Assembly: GCF_006385135.1 (NCBI RefSeq) | Contig: NZ_CP041025.1 | Location: 2,573,501 to 2,637,500, forward strand | Reading direction: 5' to 3' | Origin: Paremcibacter congregatus | Lineage (GTDB): Bacteria > Pseudomonadota > Alphaproteobacteria > Sphingomonadales > Emcibacteraceae | DNA: 64,000 bases | Shown here: positions 2,310 through 23,795 of the stretch, in pieces | Layout of the letters: the number at the start of each line of letters is the position of its first letter | How positions within the stretch are numbered: the first letter of the stretch is position 1 | Notes under the pieces: model-generated | The model's input: the letters and a program-made list of their open reading frames with translations, nothing else | Told to the model about the DNA's origin: nothing | The model's database searches: none | Translations under genes and position numbers: made by a program

Positions 2310-5300
2310 TTAAAATGGCAGCGCCAATTTCATCAGCCCGCTGTTTGTCGTAACATGACCAGCAACAGTACGATTATATTGCAACCGCAATGAAAGGTTT
2401 TCCGTCAACGTTAAATCAATCCCCGTGCGCGCCACCCAGGAATCCTGACCAAGCCCCATCGAAACCGTGATCGGGTCGATACCATCAGGCGCAGCAGCCA
2501 ATCCGGCAAGAACCGTCGAATTTCCATCCGTCAGGTAATGCTTCAAGGCAATACTGGCAAACAACCGCATGTTCAGATCTTCGCTTAATTTGAATTCTGC
2601 GCCGACTTCAAACCCTGGGCTTACCCACAGGTCGGTTTCCGTATGACCAGGAAGAACCAGACTGATTGCGCCGGCCCCGGCTTCCTGAGCCGCATCCGTC
2701 TTGACATGACTGACACCCGCCTCAAGAATAGGGCGTCCATAGACATTTTCAGGTTTTCCCTCAATATCATAGGACAGACGCAGCTGCCCGCCCATGATCT
2801 TCATATGCCGCTCGACAGAAGTATAAAAGCTTTCGACCAAATGCCCGCGACGACTGGTATCCGTATTATTCCACCCATAGGACGCCGCCAGCGCCACCTT
2901 GGTTGGCCCACTGCGGTATTTGACGGACATCCCCACTTGCTTTGTCATACCTCTGGACTGCCAGGCCCCGGCATAACCATTTGACTCATGATCCTGCCGC
3001 GACAGAGCGACCCCTGCAGACCAGTCGTTTGCAAATGTCTTCTGCACGCCCAGGCTGAACCGGTTACCGCTGCTGGTAGAGCTTTTGTAATCGTCAAAAC
3101 TTGCCCGGGTTGTCTGATAGCTGTCGCCCTGCAGCCAGATACAGCTGCCTTCCCGGGTAAACCGGTGCACTCCGCCAGCCTGGCGGCAACTCATCATGGC
3201 CTGTGCAAAGTCCTGTTGACTGACAACCATTTCAACCTGATGTTCACCATAGAAGTCAGGCGACATTTGAGAAATTGCCTGGCGGTAAGTCGCCTCGTCC
3301 GGAATGTAAAGCAATGTCGATATGACACTCGCGAGCTCAGGACTGCTTCCGGCATTCTGCAGCCTATTAATATATTCACCTACCGCACTCAGATTATCTC
3401 CCGTCCCGTTCACAGCGAAGTCAACCTCATAGCCCAGCATGGCTTCTGTTTCCCCCCGATAGAACAAGTCGTAGGTGATGACTTGAGACGATGTGGTTGT
3501 CAAGAAAAGGCCACTATCGGTCACCCCTTCTTCCCCGGAATAGAGCACCTTACTGAACTCACCGGCCCGCACAGCCTGCGGGTTAAGCAGACTGACAACA
3601 ACTTCCCCATTCAGGTCAGCCGTGCCGCTCGCACGGATCTGATCTATATTATCCGACACAAAATCAAGTTCGGATAGCATGACACCAGTACTGCTCTGGA
3701 CGAAACTTCCCGTCAGGTCAGTGCGTTGGGCCAGTTGCATATCACCCGGGGTCATAAGCCCCTCATTCGTCACAACACTTGCCGAATTGCCAACGGAAAG
3801 TGTTGTCCCCGGCACGAATGTCGCGCCCTCGTGGTTGATAAACTGATTAACCCCTTGCCCCAGATCGAATTGTCCATAGAACAGATTGCGGTTATCGACC
3901 AGATCATTGCCCTCTGTCGCCAGAACGCCCATGCCGTCAAGTCCGTCCAGCGTCATGACAGACCCCAGATTATCAAAATGGTTATTGTCCCCGCCGGATA
4001 ACCACAGGCCAACGCCCCCGGTCCCCGCCATAATCCATTTATCCGCGCTCAGGGTGACCGTGATATCACCTTGACCGTCCTGACCTTCTGATTGGGCAAA
4101 CACCGCGACACCCCGATCCCCTTCGGCAGCGACGCTGTCCTTCAGTGTCAGCATAATATCACCGGAACGCCCGGCGCCGCCAGCGCTGCCCATATGGATG
4201 CGGTCGACTATACCGCCGCCGCCGCCCAGACTCTGCGCCAGAATACCAAAAGAATCAGCCCCTTGGGTAACCACAGTACCCGTCTGGGTAAAGCTGATAT
4301 CACCCCCGTCGCCGCTGTTGTCGGCGCTTAAGGAAAGCGTGACATTTTCTGCCGCCAAATCCGTAAAGACCGCGCCGCCGCCACCGCCAATGGATTGCAG
4401 GACCACCCCATGCGCCAAATCGCCGGTGGTCAGAATGCTGCCGTCGTTCTGTAAGCTGATCACACCGCCCTGACCAGTATTCCCGGCGGTCCCCCCCAGT
4501 GTAATCGCAACGCTATCAAGGCCGGTCAGGCGAACATCGCCGCCACCGCCACCCAGGCTTTGAATGATCATCCCCTGGGAACGATCCCCCTGGGTTTCCG
4601 TATTACCGGTAAAGGCCAGATCAATCACACCACCGTCATTCCCGAAACTCGCCGATGCCCCCAGGGACAAGGTCGCCGTCGCACTGCCCTGTTCGACCGC
4701 CGCCGGCGTTTTTATCCCCGCAGCCAATGTCCGCTGAGTGTAAGAGGCCGTCTGAACAGATGTTCCGCTAGCTTCGGCTTGGGGTTCGGCTTGGGCTTCT
4801 GTAACCGGGACGGTATTGATGTCGATCCGCAGAAGACCACCGCCCCCCCCAATGGACTGAACCGAGGTGCCGGCAGAGGTTTTTCCCTGTGTTCCCACAT
4901 CCCCTGTACGGGTCAGAACCACATCACCCCCATCGCTGTTGGTGCTTTCCGCCCCGCCCAGCGCAGTCTCCAGATCAATCCGGGCTTCCTCATTCACTGT
5001 CATGTCTATGGTGCTGACGCCACCGCCACCGCCAACGGACTGGGTCAGGGAGGCAATCGAATTTTCCGCCGCCGTTACCAGATCACCGACATGGCTGGCC
5101 TCAATCAGCGACGCGCCCTGATCTTCCGCAAATGTCGTACCCAGTTCGATAACACTGGTGATCGCGCCTTTTACTTTATCGACAATACCGCCGTTATCCG
5201 GCAACTCGACACTATCCTCTCCGAACGCCGCCGCTGTCTCGCTGACATCAAGGTAGAGATTTACCTCGCCACCCCCGCCATTAATGCTTTGCGAGAATTG

Positions 5301-8300
5301 CGCCACGCTATTACGACCGAGAACAGTGATATCGCCTTCCGTATTGATGGTGACCGTCCCGGCTGTCCCCTCGCTCCCGTCTTTACTGCCGAGCAACATG
5401 GGCAAGAAGTAATCAGCCGCCATCCATACAGGACTTGAAACCGAGAAGCCTGACGTGCCACCGCCGCCACCAACGCTTTGGGCGAAGATTCCATAAGTAT
5501 CGTCCCCGCGCACAATAATGGAACCAGTATGATTAACCACAACATCACCACTATCGGCCCCGTCGCCGCCAAAGCCACCCACGGCAATATTCATCAACGA
5601 TTTCTTCAGATCTTCCTTTGGATTGGCCAGCAAGTCAGGGGATAACGCCATCGTCAGTCGACCATTTCCGCCGCCGCCGCCGACGGACTGGGCAAAAATC
5701 CCATAGGATCCGTTACCGATCGTTTCAATGGCGCCACTGTTGTTGACGGTGACATTACCAGATATATTGCCATCGCCCCCGAACCCGCCGATCGACATGC
5801 TGCTGAGATTGTTGCTGGTGCTTGTGCTCCCGTTCACCATATTTCCGGACATGGTCAGGCCTGAATCGCCCCCGCCACCGCCAATGCTCTGGGCGATGAT
5901 CCCGTGGGAAATATGACCGGTGGTAATGATAGATCCGGTATTATTCACCGTAACCAGACCGGAAGTTCCGCCTGTTCCCCCGCTGCCGCCAAGGGTGAAA
6001 GCCACAGCATTTGTCGTGGTATCACCGGCATTTCTGGCCGTATTATTCGTCGCTATGGAACTTCCCTTACCGCCGCCGCCGCCAATGCTCATGGCGTAGA
6101 TGCCATGAGAGCGATTGCCATTGGTAATGATAGCCGCGGCTGCACCACCACTGTCTCTCAGATTTGAAACCGTTACAGCTCCGCCAGTACCACCCTGTCC
6201 GCCGGTGCCACCGACACCGATAGAGATTTTATTCCCCGCGCCTTTTGCAGAAGATGAGTTCGTGATGACCTGCTTGGCATTGCCCCCGCCGCCGCCAATG
6301 GATTGCGCCAGAATACCAACGGAGTCATCCTTGTCCGTCCCGATGCCACCTGTATTGGTAACCGTTACCGCATCAGCCGTCGCCCCGACGCCGCCATCGC
6401 CACCAACAGAGATTAACATGACTGTGGATTTGGTTGCATCCTGATTGTACAGCGTATTGATCACCATGCCACCATTGCCACCGCCGCCGCCAAGACTTTG
6501 CGCCAGAACGCCATGCGCCCCCTCACCGTCAGTAATGACAACGCCGGAATTTTCCACATCAACCAGACCACTGGCGGCACCGGTGCCCCCGCTGCCCCCC
6601 ACGGCGATCAGAATGCTGGAGCCTTCTTTCGTCTGTACTCCGCCGGACTTTACCATGCCGCCATTACCGCCGCCGCCACCGACGCTCTGCGCCAGAATGC
6701 CCATGGCGTTGGCGCCATATGTCCTTACATTGGCGGAACTGTTCAGGTCGACATTCCCTCCGGTTCCCCCTTCGCCGCCGCTCCCGCCAAGGGACAAGGC
6801 CGCTTTGGACGATTTAAATACCGTGCCCGAGGCACTGCCGCCATTGCCGCCGCCGCCGCCGACGCTTTGCGCGAAAATAGCATGCGCATCTCTGCCATCC
6901 GTGCTGACCCAGCCGGACGCATTCAACATCACATTACCGGCAGTTCCCCCCATTCCGCCTTCAAGACCGATGGCTACAGAAGCTCCGCGAATGGCTGTTT
7001 CTGTGGATTTCGGGGCAGAAACGCTCACAGATGTCGAAGAGCTGTTGCCGCCGCCGTTCCCGACAGATTGCGCCAAAAGACCGTAGGAAGTGTCCCCATG
7101 GGTCATCACACTGCCAGCCGAGGTGAGACTGACATCCGCCCCGGTGCCGCCGATGCCCCCCTCGCGGCCAATCTTTACGTTCAGCTTGCCGCCCGAGGAA
7201 AAGCCTGTCGCCATATCATAACCTACATTTCCGCCGCCGCCGCCAATGGACTGCGCCAGAATGCCGTATGAATTATTGCTATGGGTTTCAATCGCTCCCT
7301 CATGATCCACCGTGACTTCGCCCCCATTGCCCCCATCTCCCGGAGAGCCCCCCAAAGCCACATTCAGTCCCTTGTTACGGGAATCTTCGTCAATATAGGT
7401 CACTGCGATATTAAAGGATGCATTGCCCCCGCCGCCGCCAATGGACTGCGCCAGAATACCGTGGCTGTCTTTTTCATTCGTGACAACATCACCGATATTC
7501 GCCACTTCAGTCACACCGCCGTGTCCCGGATCCCCCCCGGAACCGCCAATGGCCAGCTGCACTGCATAGGCGCTGCTGCCTGTTTCTGTGTCACCCGCAT
7601 CTTCTGAATCACTGGAGGACTTGCCCTCCAGCTCATCCAGAACGCTGTTATAACTGGTCAGAACGCTATCATCCACGCCGGTATGTTCCGGCGTACTGCG
7701 CCCACTGCTGCCACCGCTGCCTGAACCGCCAGATCCCCCTGAACCGCTGCCTTTCGCCAGGCTGACTCCGACGATGAAATTCATCCCTGCATCGCCGCCG
7801 CCGCCGCCAATACTGCTGGCCTCAATCCCGTAAGCCCCCTGTCCTGTCGTGCTGATGGTGCCGGCCGCCGCGCCAGTCTCGCCCCGATTGACATTCACAT
7901 CACCTGCATGACCGCCGCCGCCGCCAAAGCCGCCGATGCCCATACTGACCAAAGAACTGTCTTTGGCGATATTTCCCGACACATTCATCCCGCCGCTGCC
8001 ACCGCCGCCGCCCAGACTCTGGGCAAAAATTCCCCGGGCCTGGTCCCCGGTTGTTGTGATATGCCCCGTCGAATCCACGGCGACATTACCCGCATTGGCC
8101 CCGTCCCCGGCGAAACCGCCGATCCCGGCCACGATAGAAATATCTTTCTGGTCAGCGGGGTTTGGATTGCTGGAATTGCTGACGCTGCCGGACACATTCA
8201 AGGCACCGTTTCCACCCCCTCCGGCGATGGAAGAGGCATGAATTCCGTGCGACCATTCCCCTTCAGTCTGAAGAAGACCAGTCTGGCTGACCGACACATC

Positions 8301-11300
8301 ACGACTGATGTTGCCCGCCCCGCCAAAGCCACCAACGCCCATGGTAACAGTCGGAATTTTTGAGTCTTTCGCTACTGAAATGGTGCCACTGATGTTCAGG
8401 CCGCCTTCGCCGCCGCCTCCGCCACGGGATTCCGCGAAAATCGCCGACGCCCGGTCACCGTTGGTCACAATTGTGGTATTGGCCAAAACCGTCACGTCTT
8501 CGCCAGTTCCGGCCTCTCCACCAAAACCGCCGACGCCGAAAATAAGTGGCGCATCCGAGACGATCCCGCCACTGACATTGATCGCGCCATTGCCGCCACC
8601 ACCGCCGGCGCTCTGGGCGAAAATGCCGGTACTGTAATCACCCCCGGTCATGATACTGTTGTCTCCGGTGACGGCCACGCCGACCGCGCCAGCGTTACCG
8701 CCGCCGCCGCCAAAGCCGCCCACACCGATCACCAACGCATGACCATCGCCGTCGCTTGAAGCAAACGACAACCCCGCACTGACATTGATACCGCCATCTC
8801 CGCCGCCGCCGCCAAGGCTCTGGGCATAGATACCCTTGGCCCCTGTTGCCGTTTCTCCTTTGATAGCAGGATCATAGGTCGAATTGGTGGCAATGGTTCC
8901 GTCATAGGTCACCGACACCGCATCCGCATCACCACCAGTGCCGCCAAAACCGCCCACTCCGATGGCCGCAGAACCGCCGGTGCCTTTATTGGTGATATTC
9001 AGAGAGCCCGACACATTCGTTCCCCCGGCACCGCCGCCACCACCAACGCTTTGCGCCAGAATACCGTGCGATCCGTCCTGTTCCGTGACAACAGCGCCCG
9101 TCACATTGGTTGTAACCGTGCTGGCATGACCGCCGCCGCCGCCAAAGCCGCCCACACCGATGCCGATGGCCGCGCCATCTTCTCCCGTAATATTAACCGC
9201 TCCCGCAATATTTGTGCCGCCGGTTCCTCCGGCGCCGCCAATACTCTGCGCCACAATCGCCGAAGAATTCAGACCGGTGGTGCCAATAAGTGTATGCGCC
9301 GCAGTTGTCGCGACAGTGCTGATGACTGTACCGCCATCGCCCCCTGCTCCCCCAAAACCGCCGACACCAACGCCAAGAGCGCCGCCATTTTTCTTGCTGA
9401 TGCTCATGGCCAGTGCAACAGACAGCCCCCCGGCCCCGCCGCCGCCGCCGATGGATTGGGTATGGATGCCCAGAGAGTTATCTCCTCTAGTGACAACACC
9501 GCCCGTAACATTGCTGCTGGCGGCACTGCCGTCACCGCCGCCGCCGCCAAAGCCGCCTACGCCAACCGCGACCGCGCCACTGTTTTCTTTCGCTCCGCTA
9601 AGGCTGCCGGCAATTGTCGTGCCGCCACTGCCGCCGCCGCCGCCCAAACTCTGGGTGAGGATGCCTGTTGAATAGCCCTGCAATGTCTGTACAAACCCCG
9701 TGACATTGTTCGATGCGCTGGCAGACAAGCCGCCATCACCACCGGAGCCGCCAACCCCGATTGCCAATGCGCCGCTACCGGTTTTTGCCGCTGACACGGC
9801 CGCCGAAACCACCAGACCGCCGCTGCCGCCACCGCCGCCAATGGACTGCGCCGTGACACCTGTCGCGCCAAGACCGTCAGTATAAACGTCCCCGAGCAGC
9901 GTACTGGCCACCACATCAGCATCGCCGCCACTGCCGCCGGAGCCCCCAACCCCGACACTAACCGCGCCGCCACCGGTACCGGACATATTCACCGCCGCGC
10001 TGACCGTCAAGCCACCGGCGCCGCCGCCGCCGCCGACGCTTTGCGCCAGAATGCCTCTTGCTTGATCTCCGGCCGTCTGAATTGTTCCAACCACCGTATT
10101 GTCAACCACACCAGCACGACCGCCGCCACCGCCAGATCCGCCAACACCAACCGCAGCCCCGCCGCTGCCTTTACCTGCACCGGTTATCGTCGCCGCCACT
10201 GTCATACCGCCAGCGCCGCCGCCGCCGCCGATGGATTGCGCCGTAACGCCTGTCGCGCCCGCCCCTGCTGTAGACATCAAACCTTCAAAACGGTTGGTTA
10301 CCGTGGCCGCATCACCACCGTCACCGCCGGACCCGCCAACGCCAACACTCGCCCCACCACTACCGGTTCCTCCAACAGCAATAATGCCGGAAATGGCCAT
10401 GCCCCCGGTGCCGCCGCCGCCGCCGACGCTTTGCGCCAGAATACCGCGCGCATCATCACCCAATGTGGTGATATCCCCGATAACCGTATTCATAACCGTG
10501 TTGGCCGCGCCGCCGCCGCCGCCGGAGCCCCCCATGCCAAAGGATGCCCCGCCTGAGCCGGTACCGGCCCCGGCAAAGGTTCCCGCCACTGTAAGGCCGC
10601 CGTTACCGCCCCCGCCGCCAATGGATTGCGCCACCACGGCCGTTGCGTTGTCGCCCCCCGTAACCACCCCGCCGGTAACTTGAGAGGTTACCGCGCCGGA
10701 CAGGCCGCCGCCACCGCCGCTGCCGCCAATACCAACGCTCGCCGCGCCACTGCCGGTGCCGGCAATCGAAATTACTCCGGAAACGGACATCCCGCCGTTA
10801 CCCCCACCACCACCGATGGACTGCACCAGAACACCTGTTGAATTTCCCCCGATTGTGGTCACATTCCCGGTGATAGCGGAGTCAACCGTACTGGACAGAC
10901 CACCGTCACCACCACTGCCGCCGATGCCGACTGTCGCACTACCGCTGCCCGTGCCTGCGCCGGAGAAACCGGCCGTCACATTAAAGCCGCCATTACCGCC
11001 ACCGCCGCCAATGCTTTGGGCAACGACACCTGCGGAATCATCTCCTTCCGTCAAGACATCATTATCCACATCGACCGTCACCGCAGCCGCCGTACCGCCG
11101 CTGCCACCGCTGCCGCCAAGGCCAACACTGGCCGTGCCGGATCCGGTGCCCGCTCCTGTGGCGTCCGCCGTGACATTAAAGCCGCCATTGCCGCCGCCAC
11201 CGCCCACACTTTGCGCGAGAATGGCCGTCGACATATGGCCTTTTGTCACCACATTGCCCGTTGATGTCAAATCAACGGTATCCGCCGCCCCGGCACCGCC

Positions 11301-14300
11301 CCCGGCGCCGCCAAGACTGACGCTGGCGCCCCCACTGCCGGTGCCTGCGCCGGTGATTGTACTGGTGATATTAAAACCGCCATTACCGCCGCCGCCGCCG
11401 ATGCTTTGGGCAACGAAACCACTTGAACGGTCCTGTTCTGTATAAATGGTTCCCGCAGAAGAGGCGATGACCTTGCCGGCCACGCCGCCGCCAGATCCGT
11501 TGCCGCCGAGTCCGATAGACACGGCGCCACTGCCGGTGCCTGCCGCGGAAACTGTTGACGAAATATTGTAGCCGCCATTACCGCCGCCACCGCCGACGGA
11601 CTGTGCCAGAATACCCGTCGAATCTGTGCCATAGGTCCAGATATTTGAGGTCACGTCAGCAAAGACTTCCTTGCCGATGCCGCCCCCGGCGCCGTCCCCG
11701 CCAATACCGACAGATACGCCGCCACTGCCCGTACCGCCACCGTAAACACCAGCAACAATACTGTAACCGCCATTACCGCCGCCGCCGCCAATGGATTGCG
11801 CCACAATCGCCCCGGAATTATTTCCGCGGGTGATCACCTGTCCTGCCGCTGTCAAAGTCACGGCCCGGTCGATGGCGGCGTTACCGCCGTCCCCCGCAAC
11901 ACCCCCGTCACCGCCCAGTCCGACAGAAACACCACCAGCCCCAGCGGCCCCGACAGCCAGTGAGGCAGAAATAGCCCCGCCGCCGTTACCGCCGCCGCCG
12001 CCAACGCTTTGGGCCAGAATACCGATTGAATTGTCATCCTTGGTTTCCAGAAGCCCGGTATAGCTGGCAGTTACCACATCACCGTCGCCGCCTACCCCGC
12101 CACGCCCGCCCAGGCTGATGGCCACCGCGCCCGCACCGGAACTCCCCGCTGCGCCCGCTGAAATCGACAGGCCGCCATTACCGCCGCCGCCGCCGATACT
12201 CTGCGCAATCACACCACCAGACGACACGCCGCTGGTGGTTACATTATTGCTGACATTCAATGTGACTGCGGCGCCGTCACCACCGGAACCGCCTGTGCCC
12301 CCAAGGCCGACCTCGATGGCGCCACTGGCAACACCACCACCAGCCAATGCGCCGGAAACATTCATCCCGCCGTTGCCGCCACCGCCGCCGATGCTTTGCG
12401 CCAAAATACCGTTCGCCTGATCTCCCAGTGTCAATACGTCACCGGTCGAAGTTGCATTCACTGTTCCCGCATTACCGGCCCCGCCACCGGCGCCCCCCAG
12501 CCCGATGCTGATACCGGCACTGCCCATGCCACCTGCCGCTGCGGTGCCAGATACATTGAACCCCCCATTACCACCACCGCCACCGATGGACTGCGCAACG
12601 AAGCCTGATGAGCCCTGACCTTCAGTGCTGATCGTGCCACTGGACGTGGCCACCACCGCGCCGCCAAGCCCCCCGGCAGCGCCCGCCCCACCGAGCCCGA
12701 TACTGATCGCCCCGCCAACACCGCCAGATCCGACCAAAGCCCCGGAGATATTATAACCACCGTTGCCGCCGCCGCCGCCGACAGATTGCGCCAACAAGCC
12801 CGTGGAGTTCTCGTCAAAGGTAAAGATATTCGACGATATGGTCGCCTGAACGCCTTTGCCGTCGCCACCGCCCGCACCATCGCCGCCAATGCCGATGCTG
12901 ACCCCCGCACCGCTCGCGCTGGACAGACTTCCGCTGGCCGAAATACTATAACCGCCATTGCCGCCGCCACCGCCAATGCTTTGGGCAACAACACCAGCAG
13001 AATTCGCCCCCCGGGTGACAACCTGACCAGCCGCCGTCAACGTGACCGCCTGATCAACGCCCACACGTCCGCCGTGCCCGGCTTTACCGCCACTGCCGCC
13101 AAGTCCGACGGAAACCGCCGCAGATGCAGCGCCGGAACCAGATAGAGAGGCCGTGACAGAGCCGCCGCCGTTGCCGCCGCCACCGCCGACGGATTGCGCC
13201 ATCAAACCGATGGCGTTATCTCCTTTGGTTTCCAAGAAACCATTATAATCCGCAGTCACCAGATCGCCCTGACCGCCTTTGCCGCCCGTGCCGCCGACCC
13301 CGACGGAAACCGCCAGCCCCCCCGCACCGCCGATTGCACCGGATGGCGCAACGGACAAGCCGCCCGTTCCGCCGCCGCCGCCGATGGCCTGGACAATAAC
13401 CCCACCGGACCCGTCACCGTCGGAGATAACATCCGCCGTGATATCGGCCCGGGCTTCGCCGGCATCGCCACCGTCGCCGCCACTGCCGCCAATCCCCACG
13501 GAAATCGCACCGCTTGCCGCACCGCCGCCGGAGGCAGATGCCGCAACGGTCATCCCTCCGTTCCCGCCGCCGCCGCCAATGGACTGGATTACAATCGCAT
13601 GGGACTGATCGCCTTGTGTTTCAACAGCGCCGTTTAACGTGACATCGGTCAGGCCGCCAACGCCACCATTGCCGCCACTGCCACCAACCCCCACGGCGAT
13701 GGCCCCACTGCCTACCGCCCCGATACTGGCCACCGCTGAAATGGCCGTGCCGCCATTGCCGCCGCCACCGCCAACACTCTGCGCAACAAACCCTGAAGAC
13801 AGATTACCCTTGGTCAAAATATCGGTGGTGACATTAGACGTCACCGTTCCGCCAAGGCCTCCTGTGCCGCCACTGCCCCCGACGGAGACGCCAACAGCAC
13901 CGCCGCCAACCCCCACCTGAGCCGATACAGAAACTGTCGCACCACCATTACCACCGCCGCCGCCAACAGATTGCAGAATGATTCCTGCCGCATTCTCGCC
14001 CGATGTGGTAACTTTGCTGTCCCCATTCAGAATGACATCGCCGCCCAGACCGCCCGCGCCGCCTGTGCCGCCAACCGCCACTGAAACAGAGGCAAATGTG
14101 CCCAACGTCGCCTGAACCGCGCCGCCGCCGTTGCCGCCACCACCGCCGACGCTTTGTGCCAGAATACCCGTCGCCCGATCTCCCCCTGTCAGGATATTGG
14201 ATGGCAGTATATTGCCGCCGAGATCAAATTCATTCAACGTCATTGTCACTTGACCGCCATTGCCGCCGCGACTGCCACTGCCGCCAATCGCAACACCGCC

Positions 14301-17069
14301 AAAAAGCGATCCGGAATTGGCGCTGCCACCGTTGCCGCCCCCGCCGCCAACGGCCTGGGCAAAGACACCGAAGGCGTCATCGCCGCCAGTTGTGATAATG
14401 CCGCCGTGCGTGACCCTGACTTCGCCGGCATTGCCGCCTGTACCACCGCTGCCGCCAATGGTCAGAAACGCGCCGCCGCTGCTGCCGCCGGAACCGCCCC
14501 CGCCGCCGACGGACTGGGCAAAAATACCGCTTGATTTGTCACCATCTGTATTGATACTTCCCGTGTTGGTGACGGTCACAATGCCTGAATTACTGGCAAC
14601 CCCGCCGGAGCCACCCAAGGCGACCATGCCGCCGCTGCTGCCCCCAGAACCGCCGCCGCCACCGATGCTTTGCGCAAAAATGCCCCGGGCCAGCGCCCCG
14701 TCTGTTGATAAGGCGCCATGGTTGGTGACGGTCACCGCCCCACCGCTGCCACCGCCGGAGCCACTGCCCCCCAGGGACACCAAGCCACCAGATGACGCGC
14801 CGGACCCGCCGCCGCCACCAATGCTTTGCGCAAAAATTGCATCCGCACCCATTTCCAGAGTGGTCACATTGGCTGAACTGTTATTGGTGACCGTAACCGC
14901 CCCTGCATTACTGCCGGTACTGCCGCCGCCGCCAAGAGAAAACAGTCCCCCGGACCCGCCCCCTGCGCCGCCGCCGCCAGCGATACTTTGTGCAAAGATT
15001 CCGCGCGAATCCACCCCGTCCGTGAAGAGAGCGCCATTATTGGTAATCGTGACCGTACCGGCTGTGCCGCCGCTACTGCCTGATCCGCCAAGAGAGACAA
15101 GCCCGCCTGATGCGCCGCCGACGCCGCCGCCGCCGCCGATGCTCTGACCGAAGATGCCATGACTGAATGTTCCCTGGGTATAAATCACCCCACTCGTTTG
15201 ATTGGTGATATTGACTGCCCCGCCCGCGCCGCCGGAAGAGCCGCTACCGCCGAGAGATACCAGACCTCCACTGCCGCCGGCCGAACCGCCGCCACCGCCG
15301 ATGCTTTGGCCAAAGATGCCGTAAGCGTACCCCCCTTCTGTATTGATAATGGCGCCACTATTAATGGTCACATTGGAGCCATAGGCCCCAGGCCCGCCAG
15401 AGCCGCCCATGGTGACCAGACCACCCGTGGCGGAAGAACTGCCGCCGCCGCCGCCAATGCTTTGCCCGAAGATCCCCACGGATCCCGTCCCCAATGTATT
15501 AATCTGGCTGCCATTGTTGGCTGTGACCGTCACGGTACCGGCATAATTTCCCGACCCGGCCGAAGCCCCAAAAGACACGATTCCTCCGGCGCTACCACTG
15601 TCCCCGCCACTGCCACCGATGGACTGGGCCATAATCCCGATAGCATAATTATTATCTGTTTGGATAAAGCCGTTGGACTGCATCGTCACCGAGACATTTC
15701 CAGCGTGCCCCCCTGTTGTGGAGCCGCCCCCAAAACCGACAATCCCACCGGCATCACCACCATCACCGCCCGTACCGCCAATGGATTGCGCCAGAATGCC
15801 ATGCGAGCCGATACCGCGCGTATGAATAACCCCGTCATTGGTCACGAAAACGTTGCCGCCGGTGCCCCCGGCCGCACCACTGCCGCCGGTGCCCACGATT
15901 CCCCATCCGCTACCGCCATCTCCGCCGGCGCCCCCAACGCTCAACGCATAAATGCCATGGGAATTATTGCCCGTGGTATTGATGGTGCCCGAGTTGGTGA
16001 CATTAACAGTTCTCCCTTTTCGGGCGTTTCCCCCGTCACCACTGGGGGCAAAAATAAACCCAGAGCCGCCTTCGCCGCCTTTACCACTGCGGCTGACAGA
16101 GGTAATACCGTTCGAATGATTTCCCGATGTGGTTACGTCTACTTTATTATTCAGCGTTACATTGCCGCCATTGCCGCCGTCGCCCCCGCGATAGGCCGGA
16201 ATATTGCCGTATGAGTCGCCCCCGTCACCGCCATCGCCGCCGTAACTGCTGACTTCTATGCCGGCTTTGTTATTGCTCACGGTGGAAATAGAGCCATGCC
16301 CGGCCGACACGGTTCGATTAACCGTAGGTCCGTCGGCGCCGTCTGTTCCGGCCGACCCCGATTTGGCGATATCAAGGCATCCCCCACCCAGCCAGGAGGG
16401 CGCACAAATGCGAACACCGTAAGCGTTACTACCGCCCTTGCCGTCCGCGCCGACTGAAACTTCCGGGATTGCCCCTGAATTGGTCGTCGGCGGTATGAAT
16501 TCACCATCTCCGGGCGCCCCTTCAACCCCATCAGGCACCGTATTATACGCCCCGCTTTCATCCACCACCACTGTGCGTGTGGTTGGCGGCACCGCAGGGT
16601 CCGCCCCGATATCTGTTGTCAAATTGACATCAACAGACTCAACCAATCCGGTGCCGGCATTGACAGTAACGGACACAATCTCATAGACATCTGTATCTAG
16701 CGGATCTGTCGAATACAACTGATCCCCAATCGTGGTCTGAGTCATCAGCAGCTCACCTGTCTCAACCACCACATAAGTGACCGTGCCATTCTTATCCAAA
16801 ACCAGGTCAATTACCTTGACCTCTGCCCCGGACACAGGATGGGTAACAATATCATCCACTATTGTACCCGGTGTTGCGGCGGCAAAAGCCAAGGCCACAC
16901 CGATATAACCGCTGGATGCAACCGCCGACGCACTAGGAAATACCATCAAAGGCAGGGAGAGACAACTTGTGAGAAGGAGAGATTTATAAGCAGGGAAGTA
17001 GTCTTTCTTCTTGTTCTTACCATTATGCTTAATCACTAAAGCTTTACGACCAGACAGACCCTCAAACAT
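2310..17069 (-). CDS. giant Gly-rich repeat autotransporter adhesin (about 4,919 aa)
   Basis: A type Va autotransporter. The ATG at 17069 is preferred because an AAGGA-type ribosome site precedes it; an upstream in-frame start at 17153 is also possible. The N-terminus has an extended basic signal sequence with its hydrophobic core at residues 30-48. The passenger (roughly residues 315-4335) is built of about 60 units of 60-70 aa. Each ends in a motif of the form G(I/V)xAQS(I/V)GGGGGxGG, followed by a VSVGxGGSGGxGG strand-turn segment. A Ser/Gly/Asp/Glu-rich insert lies around nt 7580-7750. The C-terminal 280 residues are a 12-strand autotransporter beta-barrel starting near GSCIWLQGDSYQTT and ending in the outer-membrane signature Leu-Pro-Phe. 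It is expected to be displayed on the cell surface as a very long beta-helix acting in adhesion or aggregation. The long open frames on the opposite strand are Pro/Ala-rich shadows of the GGC/GGN repeats. Confidence 0.93.
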   Translation of the reverse strand: MFEGLSGRKALVIKHNGKNKKKDYFPAYKSLLLTSCLSLPLMVFPSASAVASSGYIGVALAFAAATPGTIVDDIVTHPVSGAEVKVIDLVLDKNGTVTYVVVETGELLMTQTTIGDQLYSTDPLDTDVYEIVSVTVNAGTGLVESVDVNLTTDIGADPAVPPTTRTVVVDESGAYNTVPDGVEGAPGDGEFIPPTTNSGAIPEVSVGADGKGGSNAYGVRICAPSWLGGGCLDIAKSGSAGTDGADGPTVNRTVSAGHGSISTVSNNKAGIEVSSYGGDGGDGGDSYGNIPAYRGGDGGNGGNVTLNNKVDVTTSGNHSNGITSVSRSGKGGEGGSGFIFAPSGDGGNARKGRTVNVTNSGTINTTGNNSHGIYALSVGGAGGDGGSGWGIVGTGGSGAAGGTGGNVFVTNDGVIHTRGIGSHGILAQSIGGTGGDGGDAGGIVGFGGGSTTGGHAGNVSVTMQSNGFIQTDNNYAIGIMAQSIGGSGGDSGSAGGIVSFGASAGSGNYAGTVTVTANNGSQINTLGTGSVGIFGQSIGGGGGSSSATGGLVTMGGSGGPGAYGSNVTINSGAIINTEGGYAYGIFGQSIGGGGGSAGGSGGLVSLGGSGSSGGAGGAVNITNQTSGVIYTQGTFSHGIFGQSIGGGGGVGGASGGLVSLGGSGSSGGTAGTVTITNNGALFTDGVDSRGIFAQSIAGGGGAGGGSGGLFSLGGGGSTGSNAGAVTVTNNSSANVTTLEMGADAIFAQSIGGGGGSGASSGGLVSLGGSGSGGGSGGAVTVTNHGALSTDGALARGIFAQSIGGGGGSGGSSGGMVALGGSGGVASNSGIVTVTNTGSINTDGDKSSGIFAQSVGGGGGSGGSSGGAFLTIGGSGGTGGNAGEVRVTHGGIITTGGDDAFGVFAQAVGGGGGNGGSANSGSLFGGVAIGGSGSRGGNGGQVTMTLNEFDLGGNILPSNILTGGDRATGILAQSVGGGGGNGGGAVQATLGTFASVSVAVGGTGGAGGLGGDVILNGDSKVTTSGENAAGIILQSVGGGGGNGGATVSVSAQVGVGGGAVGVSVGGSGGTGGLGGTVTSNVTTDILTKGNLSSGFVAQSVGGGGGNGGTAISAVASIGAVGSGAIAVGVGGSGGNGGVGGLTDVTLNGAVETQGDQSHAIVIQSIGGGGGNGGMTVAASASGGGAASGAISVGIGGSGGDGGDAGEARADITADVISDGDGSGGVIVQAIGGGGGTGGLSVAPSGAIGGAGGLAVSVGVGGTGGKGGQGDLVTADYNGFLETKGDNAIGLMAQSVGGGGGNGGGSVTASLSGSGAASAAVSVGLGGSGGKAGHGGRVGVDQAVTLTAAGQVVTRGANSAGVVAQSIGGGGGNGGYSISASGSLSSASGAGVSIGIGGDGAGGGDGKGVQATISSNIFTFDENSTGLLAQSVGGGGGNGGYNISGALVGSGGVGGAISIGLGGAGAAGGLGGAVVATSSGTISTEGQGSSGFVAQSIGGGGGNGGFNVSGTAAAGGMGSAGISIGLGGAGGGAGNAGTVNATSTGDVLTLGDQANGILAQSIGGGGGNGGMNVSGALAGGGVASGAIEVGLGGTGGSGGDGAAVTLNVSNNVTTSGVSSGGVIAQSIGGGGGNGGLSISAGAAGSSGAGAVAISLGGRGGVGGDGDVVTASYTGLLETKDDNSIGILAQSVGGGGGNGGGAISASLAVGAAGAGGVSVGLGGDGGVAGDGGNAAIDRAVTLTAAGQVITRGNNSGAIVAQSIGGGGGNGGYSIVAGVYGGGTGSGGVSVGIGGDGAGGGIGKEVFADVTSNIWTYGTDSTGILAQSVGGGGGNGGYNISSTVSAAGTGSGAVSIGLGGNGSGGGVAGKVIASSAGTIYTEQDRSSGFVAQSIGGGGGNGGFNITSTITGAGTGSGGASVSLGGAGGGAGAADTVDLTSTGNVVTKGHMSTAILAQSVGGGGGNGGFNVTADATGAGTGSGTASVGLGGSGGSGGTAAAVTVDVDNDVLTEGDDSAGVVAQSIGGGGGNGGFNVTAGFSGAGTGSGSATVGIGGSGGDGGLSSTVDSAITGNVTTIGGNSTGVLVQSIGGGGGNGGMSVSGVISIAGTGSGAASVGIGGSGGGGGLSGAVTSQVTGGVVTGGDNATAVVAQSIGGGGGNGGLTVAGTFAGAGTGSGGASFGMGGSGGGGGAANTVMNTVIGDITTLGDDARGILAQSVGGGGGTGGMAISGIIAVGGTGSGGASVGVGGSGGDGGDAATVTNRFEGLMSTAGAGATGVTAQSIGGGGGAGGMTVAATITGAGKGSGGAAVGVGGSGGGGGRAGVVDNTVVGTIQTAGDQARGILAQSVGGGGGAGGLTVSAAVNMSGTGGGAVSVGVGGSGGSGGDADVVASTLLGDVYTDGLGATGVTAQSIGGGGGSGGLVVSAAVSAAKTGSGALAIGVGGSGGDGGLSASASNNVTGFVQTLQGYSTGILTQSLGGGGGSGGTTIAGSLSGAKENSGAVAVGVGGFGGGGGDGSAASSNVTGGVVTRGDNSLGIHTQSIGGGGGAGGLSVALAMSISKKNGGALGVGVGGFGGAGGDGGTVISTVATTAAHTLIGTTGLNSSAIVAQSIGGAGGTGGTNIAGAVNITGEDGAAIGIGVGGFGGGGGHASTVTTNVTGAVVTEQDGSHGILAQSVGGGGGAGGTNVSGSLNITNKGTGGSAAIGVGGFGGTGGDADAVSVTYDGTIATNSTYDPAIKGETATGAKGIYAQSLGGGGGDGGINVSAGLSFASSDGDGHALVIGVGGFGGGGGNAGAVGVAVTGDNSIMTGGDYSTGIFAQSAGGGGGNGAINVSGGIVSDAPLIFGVGGFGGEAGTGEDVTVLANTTIVTNGDRASAIFAESRGGGGGEGGLNISGTISVAKDSKIPTVTMGVGGFGGAGNISRDVSVSQTGLLQTEGEWSHGIHASSIAGGGGNGALNVSGSVSNSSNPNPADQKDISIVAGIGGFAGDGANAGNVAVDSTGHITTTGDQARGIFAQSLGGGGGSGGMNVSGNIAKDSSLVSMGIGGFGGGGGHAGDVNVNRGETGAAAGTISTTGQGAYGIEASSIGGGGGDAGMNFIVGVSLAKGSGSGGSGGSGSGGSSGRSTPEHTGVDDSVLTSYNSVLDELEGKSSSDSEDAGDTETGSSAYAVQLAIGGSGGDPGHGGVTEVANIGDVVTNEKDSHGILAQSIGGGGGNASFNIAVTYIDEDSRNKGLNVALGGSPGDGGNGGEVTVDHEGAIETHSNNSYGILAQSIGGGGGNVGYDMATGFSSGGKLNVKIGREGGIGGTGADVSLTSAGSVMTHGDTSYGLLAQSVGNGGGNSSSTSVSVSAPKSTETAIRGASVAIGLEGGMGGTAGNVMLNASGWVSTDGRDAHAIFAQSVGGGGGNGGSASGTVFKSSKAALSLGGSGGEGGTGGNVDLNSSANVRTYGANAMGILAQSVGGGGGNGGMVKSGGVQTKEGSSILIAVGGSGGTGAASGLVDVENSGVVITDGEGAHGVLAQSLGGGGGNGGMVINTLYNQDATKSTVMLISVGGDGGVGATADAVTVTNTGGIGTDKDDSVGILAQSIGGGGGNAKQVITNSSSAKGAGNKISIGVGGTGGQGGTGGAVTVSNLRDSGGAAAAIITNGNRSHGIYAMSIGGGGGKGSSIATNNTARNAGDTTTNAVAFTLGGSGGTGGTSGLVTVNNTGSIITTGHISHGIIAQSIGGGGGDSGLTMSGNMVNGSTSTSNNLSSMSIGGFGGDGNISGNVTVNNSGAIETIGNGSYGIFAQSVGGGGGNGRLTMALSPDLLANPKEDLKKSLMNIAVGGFGGDGADSGDVVVNHTGSIIVRGDDTYGIFAQSVGGGGGTSGFSVSSPVWMAADYFLPMLLGSKDGSEGTAGTVTINTEGDITVLGRNSVAQFSQSINGGGGEVNLYLDVSETAAAFGEDSVELPDNGGIVDKVKGAITSVIELGTTFAEDQGASLIEASHVGDLVTAAENSIASLTQSVGGGGGVSTIDMTVNEEARIDLETALGGAESTNSDGGDVVLTRTGDVGTQGKTSAGTSVQSIGGGGGLLRIDINTVPVTEAQAEPQAEASGTSVQTASYTQRTLAAGIKTPAAVEQGSATATLSLGASASFGNDGGVIDLAFTGNTETQGDRSQGMIIQSLGGGGGDVRLTGLDSVAITLGGTAGNTGQGGVISLQNDGSILTTGDLAHGVVLQSIGGGGGAVFTDLAAENVTLSLSADNSGDGGDISFTQTGTVVTQGADSFGILAQSLGGGGGIVDRIHMGSAGGAGRSGDIMLTLKDSVAAEGDRGVAVFAQSEGQDGQGDITVTLSADKWIMAGTGGVGLWLSGGDNNHFDNLGSVMTLDGLDGMGVLATEGNDLVDNRNLFYGQFDLGQGVNQFINHEGATFVPGTTLSVGNSASVVTNEGLMTPGDMQLAQRTDLTGSFVQSSTGVMLSELDFVSDNIDQIRASGTADLNGEVVVSLLNPQAVRAGEFSKVLYSGEEGVTDSGLFLTTTSSQVITYDLFYRGETEAMLGYEVDFAVNGTGDNLSAVGEYINRLQNAGSSPELASVISTLLYIPDEATYRQAISQMSPDFYGEHQVEMVVSQQDFAQAMMSCRQAGGVHRFTREGSCIWLQGDSYQTTRASFDDYKSSTSSGNRFSLGVQKTFANDWSAGVALSRQDHESNGYAGAWQSRGMTKQVGMSVKYRSGPTKVALAASYGWNNTDTSRRGHLVESFYTSVERHMKIMGGQLRLSYDIEGKPENVYGRPILEAGVSHVKTDAAQEAGAGAISLVLPGHTETDLWVSPGFEVGAEFKLSEDLNMRLFASIALKHYLTDGNSTVLAGLAAAPDGIDPITVSMGLGQDSWVARTGIDLTLTENLSLRLQYNRTVAGHVTTNSGLMKLALPF
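4070..16130 (-). repeat. about 60 tandem degenerate Gly-rich passenger repeats
   Basis: I counted about 60 copies of the AQS(I/V/L)GGGGG core, at intervals of mostly 60-70 codons. The first units (ALSVGGAGG, AQSIGGTGG) and the last (AQSEGQDGQG) are degenerate; those in the middle are nearly uniform. At DNA level each core shows as a run of ccgccgccgcc on the + strand. Confidence 0.9.
10880..13260 (-). repeat. two tandem 1,185-bp higher-order blocks inside the passenger
   Basis: The unit containing LETKGDNAIG (nt about 13,227) recurs as LETKDDNSIG at nt about 12,042. The unit containing VTLTAAGQVVTRG (nt about 13,015) recurs as VTLTAAGQVITRG at nt about 11,830. Both pairs are offset by exactly 1,185 bp (395 codons, six units), and the following units keep the same order (NGGYSI, NGGYNI, SSGFVAQ, ILAQ). 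This indicates duplication of a six-unit block. Block ends are approximate. Confidence 0.7.
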
Positions 17070-17255
17070 AACTATTTCCTTCAGGTCGCCTCTGACCATG
17101 TTTCCAATTTTTAAGCTAATAAATAGAGAAGAACCCCTTACTCCCCCATACATATATCAAAATTACGCCGACCCTCGTTTACAGGATTCTACAACCTGAA
17201 ACCTTCATCAACAGCCGAATCCAATCGTTTCAATATGCATTTAAATTATAAAAAT

Positions 17256-17797: not shown

Positions 17798-18220
17798 ATG
17801 TCACAGAAATTATTCAGAGGAATACTTGGAGCATTCATCGCTTGCTCTCTGGCGTTCACCAGCATAGCTGGTGCCTGCCCGACCATGAATAATATGTCAA
17901 TGTCAGAGATGCCGTCAATGAATGCGTCAGGCGCGGATCATTCCTGTGAGATAATGAACCTGCAAACATCAAGCCCTTTCCGTAATCCGGACACAGAATG
18001 TTGTAATTTCTCGGCCATGATGCCGTGCGAAGCAACTGATGTTCTGGTCAATGCGGTCGGCAACAAAGTCATGGTCGACTGGGCCTTGACCGAGACGGAA
18101 ACAAGTCCTGTCACAGTCTACCCGGATGTGCGGCGGGTCAATGAGCCCCGTCTGTTCTACCCGTCATATATTTTAAAATCCCGGATCATTTACCTACAAA
18201 CCTCCCGTTTGAGAATTTGA
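17798..18220 (+). CDS. secreted Met/Cys-rich small protein, probable metal binding
   Basis: 140 aa with a signal peptide (LGAFIACSLAFTSIAGACP). The first 50 mature residues carry a Met cluster (MNNMSMSEMPSM) followed by DHSCEIM, then CCNFSAMMPCE. This combination of thioether, thiol and His ligands is typical of periplasmic Cu(I)-binding proteins. The C-terminal half is basic and aromatic and not recognised. It is the first gene before a TonB receptor, a PepSY reductase, a MerR regulator and a Cu+ ATPase, so a role as periplasmic copper chelator or chaperone (CopL-like) is inferred, not shown. No named domain is recognised. Confidence 0.7.
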   Translation: MSQKLFRGILGAFIACSLAFTSIAGACPTMNNMSMSEMPSMNASGADHSCEIMNLQTSSPFRNPDTECCNFSAMMPCEATDVLVNAVGNKVMVDWALTETETSPVTVYPDVRRVNEPRLFYPSYILKSRIIYLQTSRLRI

Positions 18221-18396
18221 TAATTCCGAACAGCCGTCGCTTGGTTTTACGTGGCGGCAGAACAACTTCCAATTTTTTCCAAAGCTTTTGAACCTCGCCA
18301 CTGCTATATGGCGTACCTCACCTTTCTGTGGCCAATGTCGCCGGAACGGCTTTCTGGTTTAAATCTCGAAATTACTCATATGAGGAGGAATCCAAC

Positions 18397-21102
18397 ATGA
18401 CACATAATCTAAAAAAGGTCCTGTTACTCGCAACTTCAATCAGCAGCTATGCCCTGATCAACACCCCTGCTTACACCTTTGCCGCAGATGAAAATGACGC
18501 AGCCCCGTCAGATACATTTGAAGAAGTGGTCGTTACCGGATCACGGATCAAACGGAAAGACCTGACAAGTGTCGGTCCCGTCAGCGTAGTGACACAGCAA
18601 ATGATCCGCAATACTGGCATTACCAGTATGGAAACACTCTTGCAACGTCTGCCCTCATCCGCAGGTTTTGGCGGTAATCAGACTGCCGCCTACTGGGTCA
18701 GCAACGGATGGGGAACTCCGCAGGTCAATCTACGCGGACTCGGCGTCAACCGCACTCTGGTCCTGTTAAATGGCCGACGGCTGGTTAACGGCGGCACCGG
18801 CGCCAACAGCTCTGTCGACCTCTCAATGATCCCTATGGCTATCGTCAAACAGGTTGAGGTTCTCAAGGACGGCGCGTCGGCCATTTACGGCGCAGATGCG
18901 GTTGCCGGGGTGGTAAATATCATTACCGACACCGATTTCAACGGCCTTGAAGCCAGCGCCAAATTTGGCATGACCGGCAAAGGAGACGGAGAAGAATATC
19001 TGATGGACCTGACTTGGGGCACCTCCAGTGACCAAGGCAGCCTCGTGGCCAGTTTAAGTTATCAGGATAATAAACCATCCCCCTTGGCCGACAGGGTGCC
19101 TTGCCCGCTGGCCTCAGACAGCGAGACCCAGTGTAACGGAAGCTCCAGCACTGCCGGCGGCCGGGCCGTTTATATTGACGGCGTGGGTGACCTCGTCCGG
19201 ATCAACTTCAATAATGAACCGGGTGGCAAGAGCTGGGCGCCGTATGACAGATCGATTCATGGCTATAATTACAATGTGAATTTCAATGCTGTTAATCCTA
19301 TCAAACGTCTGTCTTTCAGCAGTTTCGGACATTATAATTTAACCGATGATGTCCGTTTGTTCGGTGAAATGATGTATACGAACCGCCGTTCAACGCAACC
19401 TGCTTCCCCAAATGCGGTTACCCAGTTCACGCTGGCCGCAGACCATCCGACGAACCCGACAGGCGAAGACCTTCTCGTAGAAAGCCGCCGTTTGGTGGAA
19501 CTTGGCGAACGTGTCTTCCTGCAGGAAGTCAATACCTTCCGGATTGTTGCCGGTGTTGAAGGAAGCCTTTCTGATTCCTGGTCATGGGATGTGGCCCTGA
19601 ACTGGGGACGCAACACCGGAATGGATACAATTACAAATGTAGTCAATCTGGAACGGTTCAATGAAACCATAGATCCCAATGTTTGTGGTACAAATGGCAT
19701 CCCGTGCGGTGATTATCTCGGGGTTGGAAATGTCAGTCAGGCCGTTCTGGACTACCTGCCCTTTGACATGACAGACACCGGTGGAAATGAACAGTTAAGC
19801 CTGACGGCCAATATTTCAGGTGATGTTTTTGAACTTCCCGCCGGGAAAGTGGGATTTGCCGCTGGGGTCGAATATCGGGAAGATAAAGGCTGGCGTCAAC
19901 CGGATTCCCTGAAAGTGCTCGGCATCGCCAACAGCAACGCAGAAGACCCTATTTCCGGCAAAACAAAAGCCAAGGAAGCCTATGCCGAATTAAGTATCCC
20001 GGTACTGGCAGAGGTTGCTTTCGCAAAAAATCTCGACCTGAACCTGGCCCTTCGGTTTTCCGACTATGATACCTTCTCTTCGGACACCAACTACAAGATC
20101 GGGGTAAACTGGCAGGTGGTCGAAGGCTTCAAACTACGGGGCACCTACTCCACAGCCTTCCGCGTTCCCAACGTTCCCGAATTGTTTGGTGGGGTCTCGG
20201 AAGGCAATCTGACAACCACTGATCCCTGCAGCGGCTGGAGCAGCCTTGATGCCGGCAGCAACATCTATAAGAACTGCCAGGCCGCGGGTGTACCCGTTGG
20301 ATACACACAACTTGGCAACACCATCCTGACTGACAGAGGCGGCAATCCGAACCTGGAACCGGAAGATGCCCGTTCCCTGACTTTCGGGGCTGTATGGCAA
20401 CCTGGCTTTGCCGAAGGCCTGTCCGTGACGGTGGATTATTTCGATGTCAAGATAACAGACGCCATCACCGAACCTTCCGGGTCTGTCAAGCTGGCGCAAT
20501 GTTATGAGTCCGACAATCTGACCCATGATTTCTGCACCCCTGTTCATCATACCCGCAACGCCGTCACCGGCGAGGTGAATTATCTTTCCGCGCAGAAAAC
20601 CAATGCGGGCTCAGAACGCCTCAAAGGGATTGATGTCGGGGTGGTTTATAATTTCAACGCCATGGAATTAAACCACACGCTTGATTTCCAGGTCAGCTAC
20701 CTTGATACGTTTGAAAGAACAGCATTCGAAGGGGATGTGCCAATGGTCCTGAACGGATTTATTGGGGCCGGATTTGGGGGATACCCCAAGTGGCGGGCCA
20801 ACACCAGCTTCAACACATCCGCTGAAAACTGGTCGGCAACCTATTCGGTGCAATATATTGGCGCCGGGGATGACTTCTTCGCCACAGATGGCATCGGGTC
20901 CCATATGGGGGCTGTCATGTATCATAACGTACAGGGCACCTATAACATTATGGAGAACCTTGTCCTGTCCGCCGGCATCGACAATCTTTGGGACAAAAAA
21001 GCCCCCCGGGTCGCAAGCTGGACAGACGGAAATACAGACACCATGACCTACGACCTGGCTGGACGGCGCGGTTATATTCGTCTGACATACCGGATGCAGT
21101 AA
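18397..21102 (+). CDS. TonB-dependent outer-membrane receptor
   Basis: 901 aa. The ATG at 18397 is chosen because GAGGAGG lies 8 bases upstream; the frame is open further 5'. Signal peptide 1-32, then EEVVVTGSRIKRKD, the start of the plug domain (residues about 45-165, with VNLRGLGVNRTLVLLNGRR and KDGASAIYGADAVAGVVNI). A 22-strand barrel follows, with several Cys pairs in extracellular loops. The family imports metal chelates, vitamins or oligomers using TonB energy. The substrate cannot be read from sequence, but the gene sits between a Met/Cys-rich secreted protein and a PepSY-reductase, which points to a metal complex. Its last residues (LTYRMQ) lack the usual terminal Phe. Confidence 0.92.
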   Translation: MTHNLKKVLLLATSISSYALINTPAYTFAADENDAAPSDTFEEVVVTGSRIKRKDLTSVGPVSVVTQQMIRNTGITSMETLLQRLPSSAGFGGNQTAAYWVSNGWGTPQVNLRGLGVNRTLVLLNGRRLVNGGTGANSSVDLSMIPMAIVKQVEVLKDGASAIYGADAVAGVVNIITDTDFNGLEASAKFGMTGKGDGEEYLMDLTWGTSSDQGSLVASLSYQDNKPSPLADRVPCPLASDSETQCNGSSSTAGGRAVYIDGVGDLVRINFNNEPGGKSWAPYDRSIHGYNYNVNFNAVNPIKRLSFSSFGHYNLTDDVRLFGEMMYTNRRSTQPASPNAVTQFTLAADHPTNPTGEDLLVESRRLVELGERVFLQEVNTFRIVAGVEGSLSDSWSWDVALNWGRNTGMDTITNVVNLERFNETIDPNVCGTNGIPCGDYLGVGNVSQAVLDYLPFDMTDTGGNEQLSLTANISGDVFELPAGKVGFAAGVEYREDKGWRQPDSLKVLGIANSNAEDPISGKTKAKEAYAELSIPVLAEVAFAKNLDLNLALRFSDYDTFSSDTNYKIGVNWQVVEGFKLRGTYSTAFRVPNVPELFGGVSEGNLTTTDPCSGWSSLDAGSNIYKNCQAAGVPVGYTQLGNTILTDRGGNPNLEPEDARSLTFGAVWQPGFAEGLSVTVDYFDVKITDAITEPSGSVKLAQCYESDNLTHDFCTPVHHTRNAVTGEVNYLSAQKTNAGSERLKGIDVGVVYNFNAMELNHTLDFQVSYLDTFERTAFEGDVPMVLNGFIGAGFGGYPKWRANTSFNTSAENWSATYSVQYIGAGDDFFATDGIGSHMGAVMYHNVQGTYNIMENLVLSAGIDNLWDKKAPRVASWTDGNTDTMTYDLAGRRGYIRLTYRMQ

Positions 21103-21124
21103 GCTCCGAATGAAATAGCTATTA

Positions 21125-21154
21125 ACCGGGCTGTGGCATATGCTGCAGCCCGGT
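21125..21154 (+). other. intercistronic hairpin
   Basis: ACCGGGCTG at 21125-21133 pairs perfectly with CAGCCCGGT at 21146-21154 (9-bp GC-rich stem). It lies between the TonB receptor stop and the PepSY-reductase start. No T-run follows, so it is more likely an mRNA processing or stability element, or a weak attenuator, than a terminator. Confidence 0.5.
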
Positions 21155-21210
21155 CACAATCAAAAAAACAAATAAACAATTTCAAAATATTTAGTGTGAG
21201 GACAAGGCAA

Positions 21211-23691: not shown

Positions 23692-23708
23692 CAAAAACAA
23701 AAAACCAT

Positions 23709-23740
23709 TTGACCTTACAGTTAACTACAAGGTGTAACAT
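23709..23740 (+). promoter_or_regulatory. MerR-family promoter and operator
   Basis: TTGACC (-35, 23709-23714) and TAACAT (-10, 23735-23740) are separated by 20 bases, the over-long spacer typical of MerR-activated promoters. Between them is a dyad, 23712-23733: ACCTT, two bases, AGTTAACT, two bases, AAGGT, with both arms and core perfectly symmetric. It lies 60-70 bases upstream of the merR gene, suggesting autoregulation and control of the downstream ATPase. Confidence 0.8.
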
Positions 23741-23795
23741 GTGACCGAATCATAAACAGACAATATCCCAAGTCACCATAACGGGGCACAGGGGA

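Follow-up and report, generated by a model that had tools for sequence, protein, structure and literature searches.

None of the components considered here is new by itself: type Va autotransporters, passengers of giant size and bundles of polyglycine-II helices have all been described. The largest autotransporter of a 2012 survey, BigE (10,429 aa), is related to BrkA and carries an eight-fold replicated passenger domain (PMC3419190). The GGX repeats of PE_PGRS proteins have been proposed to form two-layer polyglycine-II sandwiches on the bacterial surface, with up to 54 helices in Wag22 (PMC10216338), and the springtail antifreeze protein 7jjv is built of nine helices, of which the four even-numbered ones form one face (PMC10235112). 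Searches of a literature that included few subscription papers and no preprints yielded no earlier description of a beta-helix and polyglycine-II combined in one coil, or of the repeat reported here. The word autotransporter was absent from the polyproline-II and PGRS papers checked for it, and in PMC5895577 polyglycine occurs in the titles of two cited references.

The window analysed here comprises 64,000 nucleotides of the Paremcibacter congregatus genome (GCF_006385135.1, NZ_CP041025.1, positions 2,573,501 to 2,637,500). It includes a very large gene for a glycine-rich repetitive protein, and the reading preferred in this work, with a probability of about 0.6, is that this protein is a type Va autotransporter displaying a rigid, stubby composite rod.

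The gene and its conserved ends

The gene occupies positions 2310..17069 on the minus strand, where ORF translation from 17069 to 2310 runs through 4,919 codons in a single frame before the stop. The original prediction of a single intact 14.8-kb gene of about 4,900 residues was therefore correct, coordinates included, though it left the strand unstated. The uninterrupted frame that it described was also confirmed, as the gene's own frame holds the terminal stop only. Each of the other five frames contains 54 to 227 stops, with a longest stop-free run of 367 codons, and the plus strand of 2310-17069 is crowded with stops in the frame shown. An ATG-started minus-strand frame of 4,947 codons (17153..2310) is open throughout as well. 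From start-site analysis the ATG at 17069 is the likelier start codon, because AAGGA is found seven bases upstream of it and no such sequence precedes the in-frame ATG at 17153.

The genome assembly is a single contig of 4,189,011 bases. The longest exact repeat inside the gene measures 33 nt, Tandem Repeats Finder reported only two short rows in the gene DNA, and ungapped DNA repeat copies are 60-76% identical to their reference copy at a listing cut-off of 60%. An assembly artefact by collapse or expansion is unlikely given the divergence of the DNA repeats, the shortness of the exact repeat, the single contig and the existence of a 5,133-aa relative that is colinear unit by unit (see below). 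GC content is 55-66% across 4-17 kb of the window. The third-position GC of the gene, 0.60 (0.57 without Gly codons), falls within the range of 14 other window genes (0.52-0.62) and the GC excess is due to Gly codons, so that composition gives no support for a recent horizontal acquisition.

The protein contains 26.7% Gly. Its C-terminal 563 residues matched the autotransporter beta-barrel family PF03797 (Pfam; E 1.4e-25, 91 bits against a cut-off of 26, profile positions 2-255 of 255), which is encoded at 2373..3137 on the minus strand, and the C-terminus, LMKLALPF, ends in the aromatic residue Phe. Passenger and barrel lie on one polypeptide, since they share the 4,919-codon frame. By its barrel, single polypeptide and terminal Phe the protein is classed as a type Va autotransporter, for which surface export is predicted. 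The barrel was detected with the C-terminal piece only; a scan of the whole 4,947-aa protein returned no Pfam and no NCBIfam family, and NCBIfam gave no match for five pieces (the C-terminus, two repeat stretches, the N-terminal 455 aa and a late repeat stretch).

At the opposite end, a likely signal peptide region (MFEG…SASA, 16923..17069, minus strand) was picked out by eye in the translated sequence, which shows SASA and a run of hydrophobic residues. It is followed by an N-terminal head (15852..16871, minus strand), partly Gly-rich and 40-58% identical to five relatives in the alignment. No Pfam family (E 0.01 or better, N-terminal 455 residues) or NCBIfam family was found in the head. The head profile matched six of 397 genomes of the phylum, the own genome included, at full length in two (the own genome and G725) and in the remaining four over the Gly-rich second half of the head only. 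Five Cys residues are present in the protein. One, at position 36, belongs to the likely signal peptide; the head pair, residues 222 and 231 (16377..16406, minus strand), is invariant in six alignment rows and likely forms a disulfide; a second pair, residues 4628 and 4643, lies just before the barrel (3141..3188, minus strand) and is invariant in five rows.

No conserved partner gene was found among the flanking ORFs tested in NORP123, HTCC2148 and S010_25, or beside the gene in the Martelella and Roseibium relatives. The ORFs tested were an amidohydrolase in NORP123, dnaX and an HlyD/AcrB-type pair in HTCC2148, and a hybrid histidine kinase, a tRNA methyltransferase and a citrate-type transporter in S010_25. 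None of these types adjoins the gene in the window, where hybrid kinases occur about 10 kb away. A histidine kinase/LytTR pair adjoins the gene in the Martelella and Roseibium relatives, and the window has no such pair. Divergently from the autotransporter gene, the plus strand at 17800-26658 encodes a small Met-rich secreted protein (identified by eye), a TonB receptor, a PepSY/flavin reductase and a heavy-metal P-type ATPase with HMBD and YHS domains, which together are taken to be a copper locus. On the minus strand, positions 3-1270 contain an ECF sigma factor gene followed, at the window edge, by another that is presumably FecR-like. Further away (50221-56504, minus strand) an AT skew of 0.17-0.32 extends over what seems to be an Mrp-type antiporter cluster of three Proton_antipo_M genes and one MnhB/MbhD gene. 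The skew is probably due to the codon bias of hydrophobic membrane proteins.

Repeat units and their conservation in relatives

The passenger had been described as about 60 AQS(I/V)GGGGG units. This number holds for a relaxed pattern, which has 61 sites defining 60 units, and not for the exact motif AQS[IV]GGGGG, which occurs 31 times; xQS[IVL]GGGGG occurs 47 times. Judged from motif spacing, the first units are 52-54 aa long, most of the middle ones are 65 aa to the residue, and the later ones are irregular. All three parts are on the minus strand: nine 52-54-aa units at 14361..15791 (motif sites 1-9), the transition and central array of mostly 65-aa units at 9057..14360 (sites 10-36) and the irregular units at 4098..9056 (sites 37-60). 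Units 15-20 and 21-26 (11022..13394, minus strand) retain the trace of a six-unit block duplication, in that five of units 15-20 have their best match six units further on, while unit 19 is slightly nearer to unit 29 than to unit 25.

The protein contains 107 GGX segments, compared with a mean of 21.1 and a maximum of 30 in 20 shuffled sequences, and the other autotransporter of the same genome (1,994 aa, L009 2651-8635) contains none. Exactly two segments are present in 41 of the 60 units, three in 4, one in 8 and none in 7; the GGX count is zero throughout units 55-60 (4098..5294, minus strand), which are membrane-proximal. Among 119 units of exactly 65 aa, a set from which the near-duplicate Aestuariivirga was excluded, Gly occupies positions 5, 6, 8 and 9 in 98-100% and position 7 in 93%, and positions 34-41 follow the pattern GGX GGX GG.

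Relatives are scattered. A 630-aa C-terminal piece was found in 4 of 60 genomes of related taxa, the own genome included; two of these matches were from the same genus (53-56% identity) and one from the same order (28%). In a class-level survey the barrel matched at E 1e-10 or better in 31 of 387 genomes, again counting the own genome, and exceeded 200 bits in three only. Scanning genome contigs brought the confirmed loci to 17. They include, under the depositors' taxon labels, HTCC2148 (a marine gamma proteobacterium isolate), S010_25 (a MAG labelled Gammaproteobacteria), Rhizobiales, Methylophilaceae and a Nitrospinaceae MAG. G075 (4,088 aa, 16.8% Gly, two motif sites) was left out of membership. 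Searches with tblastn gave 74 plasmid records, all below 60% identity. So patchy a distribution would be compatible with horizontal transfer.

Complete member frames measure 1,997 to 7,035 aa from stop to stop, so that the window protein is large and, beside the 7,035-aa relative and BigE, no length record. At five MAG loci (L013, L014, L016, L021 and L025) the contig edge falls inside the gene, and the lengths of such relatives are lower bounds; surveys of such genomes would for the same reason undercount giant autotransporters. Two genomes encode Gly-rich relatives of 5,659 and 5,674 aa (L030 and L031) that end in SLRYRW and differ in unit rhythm, with recurring spacings of 128/118/50/103; they may form a subfamily of their own in which an entire block is the repeating element. 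One Rhizobiaceae-group genome, YR2-508 (G448; L022, L041 and L042), encodes three relatives of 3,810, 2,627 and 2,412 aa.

Unit order was compared by aligning the window units to the units of eight relatives, against 100 shuffles of unit order for each; stretches of G393, G273 and G193 (C4), being without a Gly-rich frame, had been dropped. S010_25 (5,133 aa, 63 units) proved colinear with the 60 window units, with a score of 77.4 and a shuffle maximum of 14.6. The two proteins pair 55 units in order, S010_25 having four extra units after unit 27, and only window unit 31 and the late units 43, 55, 57 and 60 are unpaired. Unit order scored above all shuffles in seven of the eight relatives: S010_25, HTCC2148, NORP123 (partial), SZUA-309a, YR2-508a, Rhizobiales Y(2018) and, barely, G157 (-4.8 versus a maximum of -6.9). 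Martelella scored -11.2, below its best shuffle (null mean -12.6, maximum -9.9). The most distant members thus have the unit type in common and not its order.

Window and S010_25 units were compared for the 41 of the 55 pairs up to unit 42; the pairing was taken from that same alignment and is favoured by it. With this bias, the orthologue resembled a unit more closely than did its next neighbour in the same protein in 37 of 41 pairs, and in 25 of 41 it also surpassed the most similar unit found anywhere along the window protein. For orthologous units, with 2,562 codons compared, dN was 0.30 and dS 3.6, the latter near saturation. The low dN beside a near-saturated dS, together with the unit-by-unit colinearity, indicates at the level of sequence that single units are held by selection and that the array is not simply being homogenised. 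Selection for function had been deduced from the absence of frameshifts in so repetitive a gene; the conclusion is borne out by these data, and the argument itself is weak, the DNA being not very repetitive. Conservation of this kind argues against treating surface repeats as arrays that expand freely.

A predicted composite coil

Two different stretches, covering 687 of the 4,919 residues, were modelled with AlphaFold2 from different alignments. The first, five 65-aa units (9852..10826, minus strand; 20-sequence alignment), gave pLDDT 90.6 and pTM 0.82, its five models ranging from 82.8 to 90.6. The second, the transition from 52-aa to 65-aa units (13590..14675, minus strand; 5-sequence alignment), gave pLDDT 91.2 and pTM 0.82, with two of five models high and three at 58-60. 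A further alignment of overlapping stretches (A2) was dropped, as it aligned the overlaps only, and A3 was unused.

In VIA-align the springtail antifreeze chain 7jjv_B was the first match of both models, with Z 13.6 and 1.7 A over 125 of 126 residues for the five-unit model (model residues 31-307) and Z 14.0 and 1.6 A over 125 residues for the transition model (2-251); these values are only just above the Z of about 13 under which a match may reflect an arrangement common to repeats. Next came a SufB-SufC-SufD complex chain (Z 8.7) and Vag8 (7.8) for the five-unit model, and for the transition model the autotransporter beta-helix passengers Vag8 (12.5), Fap2 (10.8) and pertactin (10.7). Foldseek gave no match of either model at E 0.001. 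It placed 7jjv_A and 7jjv_B at ranks 1 and 2 for the transition model (E 0.026 and 0.06) and 7jjv at rank 10 for the five-unit model, where the match was weak (E 0.6, probability 0.03). A viral structure library yielded weak matches only (best E 0.0015, probability 0.05), and the repeats had no relatives among the sequences of solved structures, the best being a phage fibre at E 0.3. A fold missing from these lists was not counted as excluded. AlphaFold2 may have learned the bundle from the older snow flea structure (2pne, 2008).

The alignment ranges suggest how much of the fold one unit supplies. The nine helices of 7jjv span about 4.3 units in each model, which corresponds to one helix per layer per unit. 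Six units span 165-residue stretches of Vag8 and Fap2, so that each unit corresponds to about 27 residues, as many as one rung takes. For the transition model, whose mean unit is 60 residues, about 29 residues per unit align to the bundle and about 26 to Vag8. From these ranges one 52-65-aa unit looks like one wide coil consisting of a beta-helix rung and two polyglycine-II helices. The description of a Gly-rich beta-helix autotransporter was right about the class of protein, and a beta-helical component is indeed predicted. It overlooked the polyglycine-II helices, the conserved head and its Cys pair, the membrane-proximal units free of GGX segments and the existence of longer relatives.

A classical narrow beta-helix, as that description implies, in which about 20-30 residues make a rung, two or three rungs a unit and the whole a filament of about 60-100 nm, would agree with the type Va barrel, with the beta-helix matches of the transition model at Z 10.7-12.5 and with the usual beta-helical nature of passengers of this class (PMC5895577). 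It is nevertheless unlikely, since known beta-helices align at about one rung per unit in both models and the Gly segments superpose on the polyproline-II bundle, not on rungs. Gly-rich stretches are often flexible, and the weak Foldseek scores would also suit a beta-helix with flexible loops whose Gly content is maintained because it eases transit of the barrel; the bundle would then be a prediction artefact. This explanation was judged quite improbable: pLDDT is above 90 in most 10-residue blocks of the five-unit model, with the minimum at the tip of the extra strand pair of the 65-aa units, whose connection has the lowest confidence, and loops would have no need of Gly in 98-100% of 119 units at fixed positions.

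As an antifreeze protein is the best match of both models, the polyglycine-II face might also bind ice as in springtails, which would make the protein an ice-binding surface adhesin. A common fold shows no function, however, and the ice-binding face of the springtail protein is Ala-rich (PMC10235112), whereas at the second-helix X positions of 22 window units Ala occurs in 3, 1 and 2, the commonest residues being Ser, Gly and Asp. Ice binding is thus regarded as very remote.

In the preferred reading, the composite rod, each 52-65-aa unit would be a single solenoid coil of one beta-helix rung and two polyglycine-II (polyproline-II) helices, one per layer, and the 65-aa version would add about 13 residues as the extra strand pair. 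In the stack of coils a beta-helix would be joined along its length to an unbroken polyglycine-II bundle of two layers. The usual coil rise is 0.48 nm. If every unit forms one coil and each further coil adds about that much, some 60 coils would give a rod about 30 nm long. A very long surface filament, as had been expected from the length of the gene, is therefore not what the models suggest; at one coil per 52-65 residues, instead of one per 20-30 or so, residues would go into coil width and not into reach, and the rod would perhaps have half to a third of the length of a classical beta-helix with the same number of residues. Export would proceed with the C-terminal part first and folding would start from the units without GGX segments; the part of a passenger that emerges first forms a stable core (PMC5895577), and the membrane-proximal units 55-60, being the first to emerge, may be a plain beta-helix. 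The rod would hold the head at a distance from the cell, and its likeliest role, suggested by the class of protein, would be in adhesion or contact within biofilms.

A bolder extension is that the composite coil is a new solenoid architecture and that two rods may zip face to face via backbone hydrogen bonds. The layer of GGGGG helices may be a middle layer, because even the X position within these helices is occupied by Gly in 93-98% of units; the zipping would require that the layer be covered by another molecule. The extension is considered quite improbable. If true, it would mean cell-cell adhesion by backbone-only contacts in place of side-chain recognition, and a thicker polyglycine-II stack.

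If the composite rod is correct, the reach of such proteins beyond the cell could not safely be read from the length of their genes, and type V secretion could fold polyglycine-II layers outside the cell without ATP. The 52-65-aa repeat would offer a short unit for testing a rare fold.

Relation to known systems

With the type Va autotransporters pertactin and Vag8 the window protein shares the C-terminal PF03797 barrel, the terminal Phe and the beta-helix match of its transition model; it differs from them by a far longer passenger and by a predicted 52-65-residue coil with two built-in polyglycine-II helices. BigE resembles it in having a giant passenger grown through internal repetition, and AoaA of Azorhizobium (PMC9289746) in being an alphaproteobacterial autotransporter, both being likened by description only.

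On the polyglycine side, springtail antifreeze proteins (7jjv, 2pne) have the same two layers of Gly-rich polyproline-II helices, but are small animal proteins made of the bundle alone, with neither beta-helix nor barrel, and there is no evidence of common ancestry. The adhesin of the phage S16 tail fibre (PMC8409303) has a polyglycine-II domain with runs of 6-7 Gly in its central helices, comparable to the GGGGG runs here, and differs in being a phage protein with ten helices in three layers at the fibre tip. The PE_PGRS proteins of mycobacteria are set apart by their PE domain, for which a Pfam scan of the first 455 residues of the window protein gave no match at E 0.01 or better, and by another export route, the window protein combining some 107 GGX segments with a predicted beta-helix and a type V barrel. 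Should the models hold, the polyglycine-II segments would number about 107, roughly double the 54 helices of Wag22, and scattered giant autotransporters would exceed in number of polyglycine-II helices any bundle named in the literature examined.
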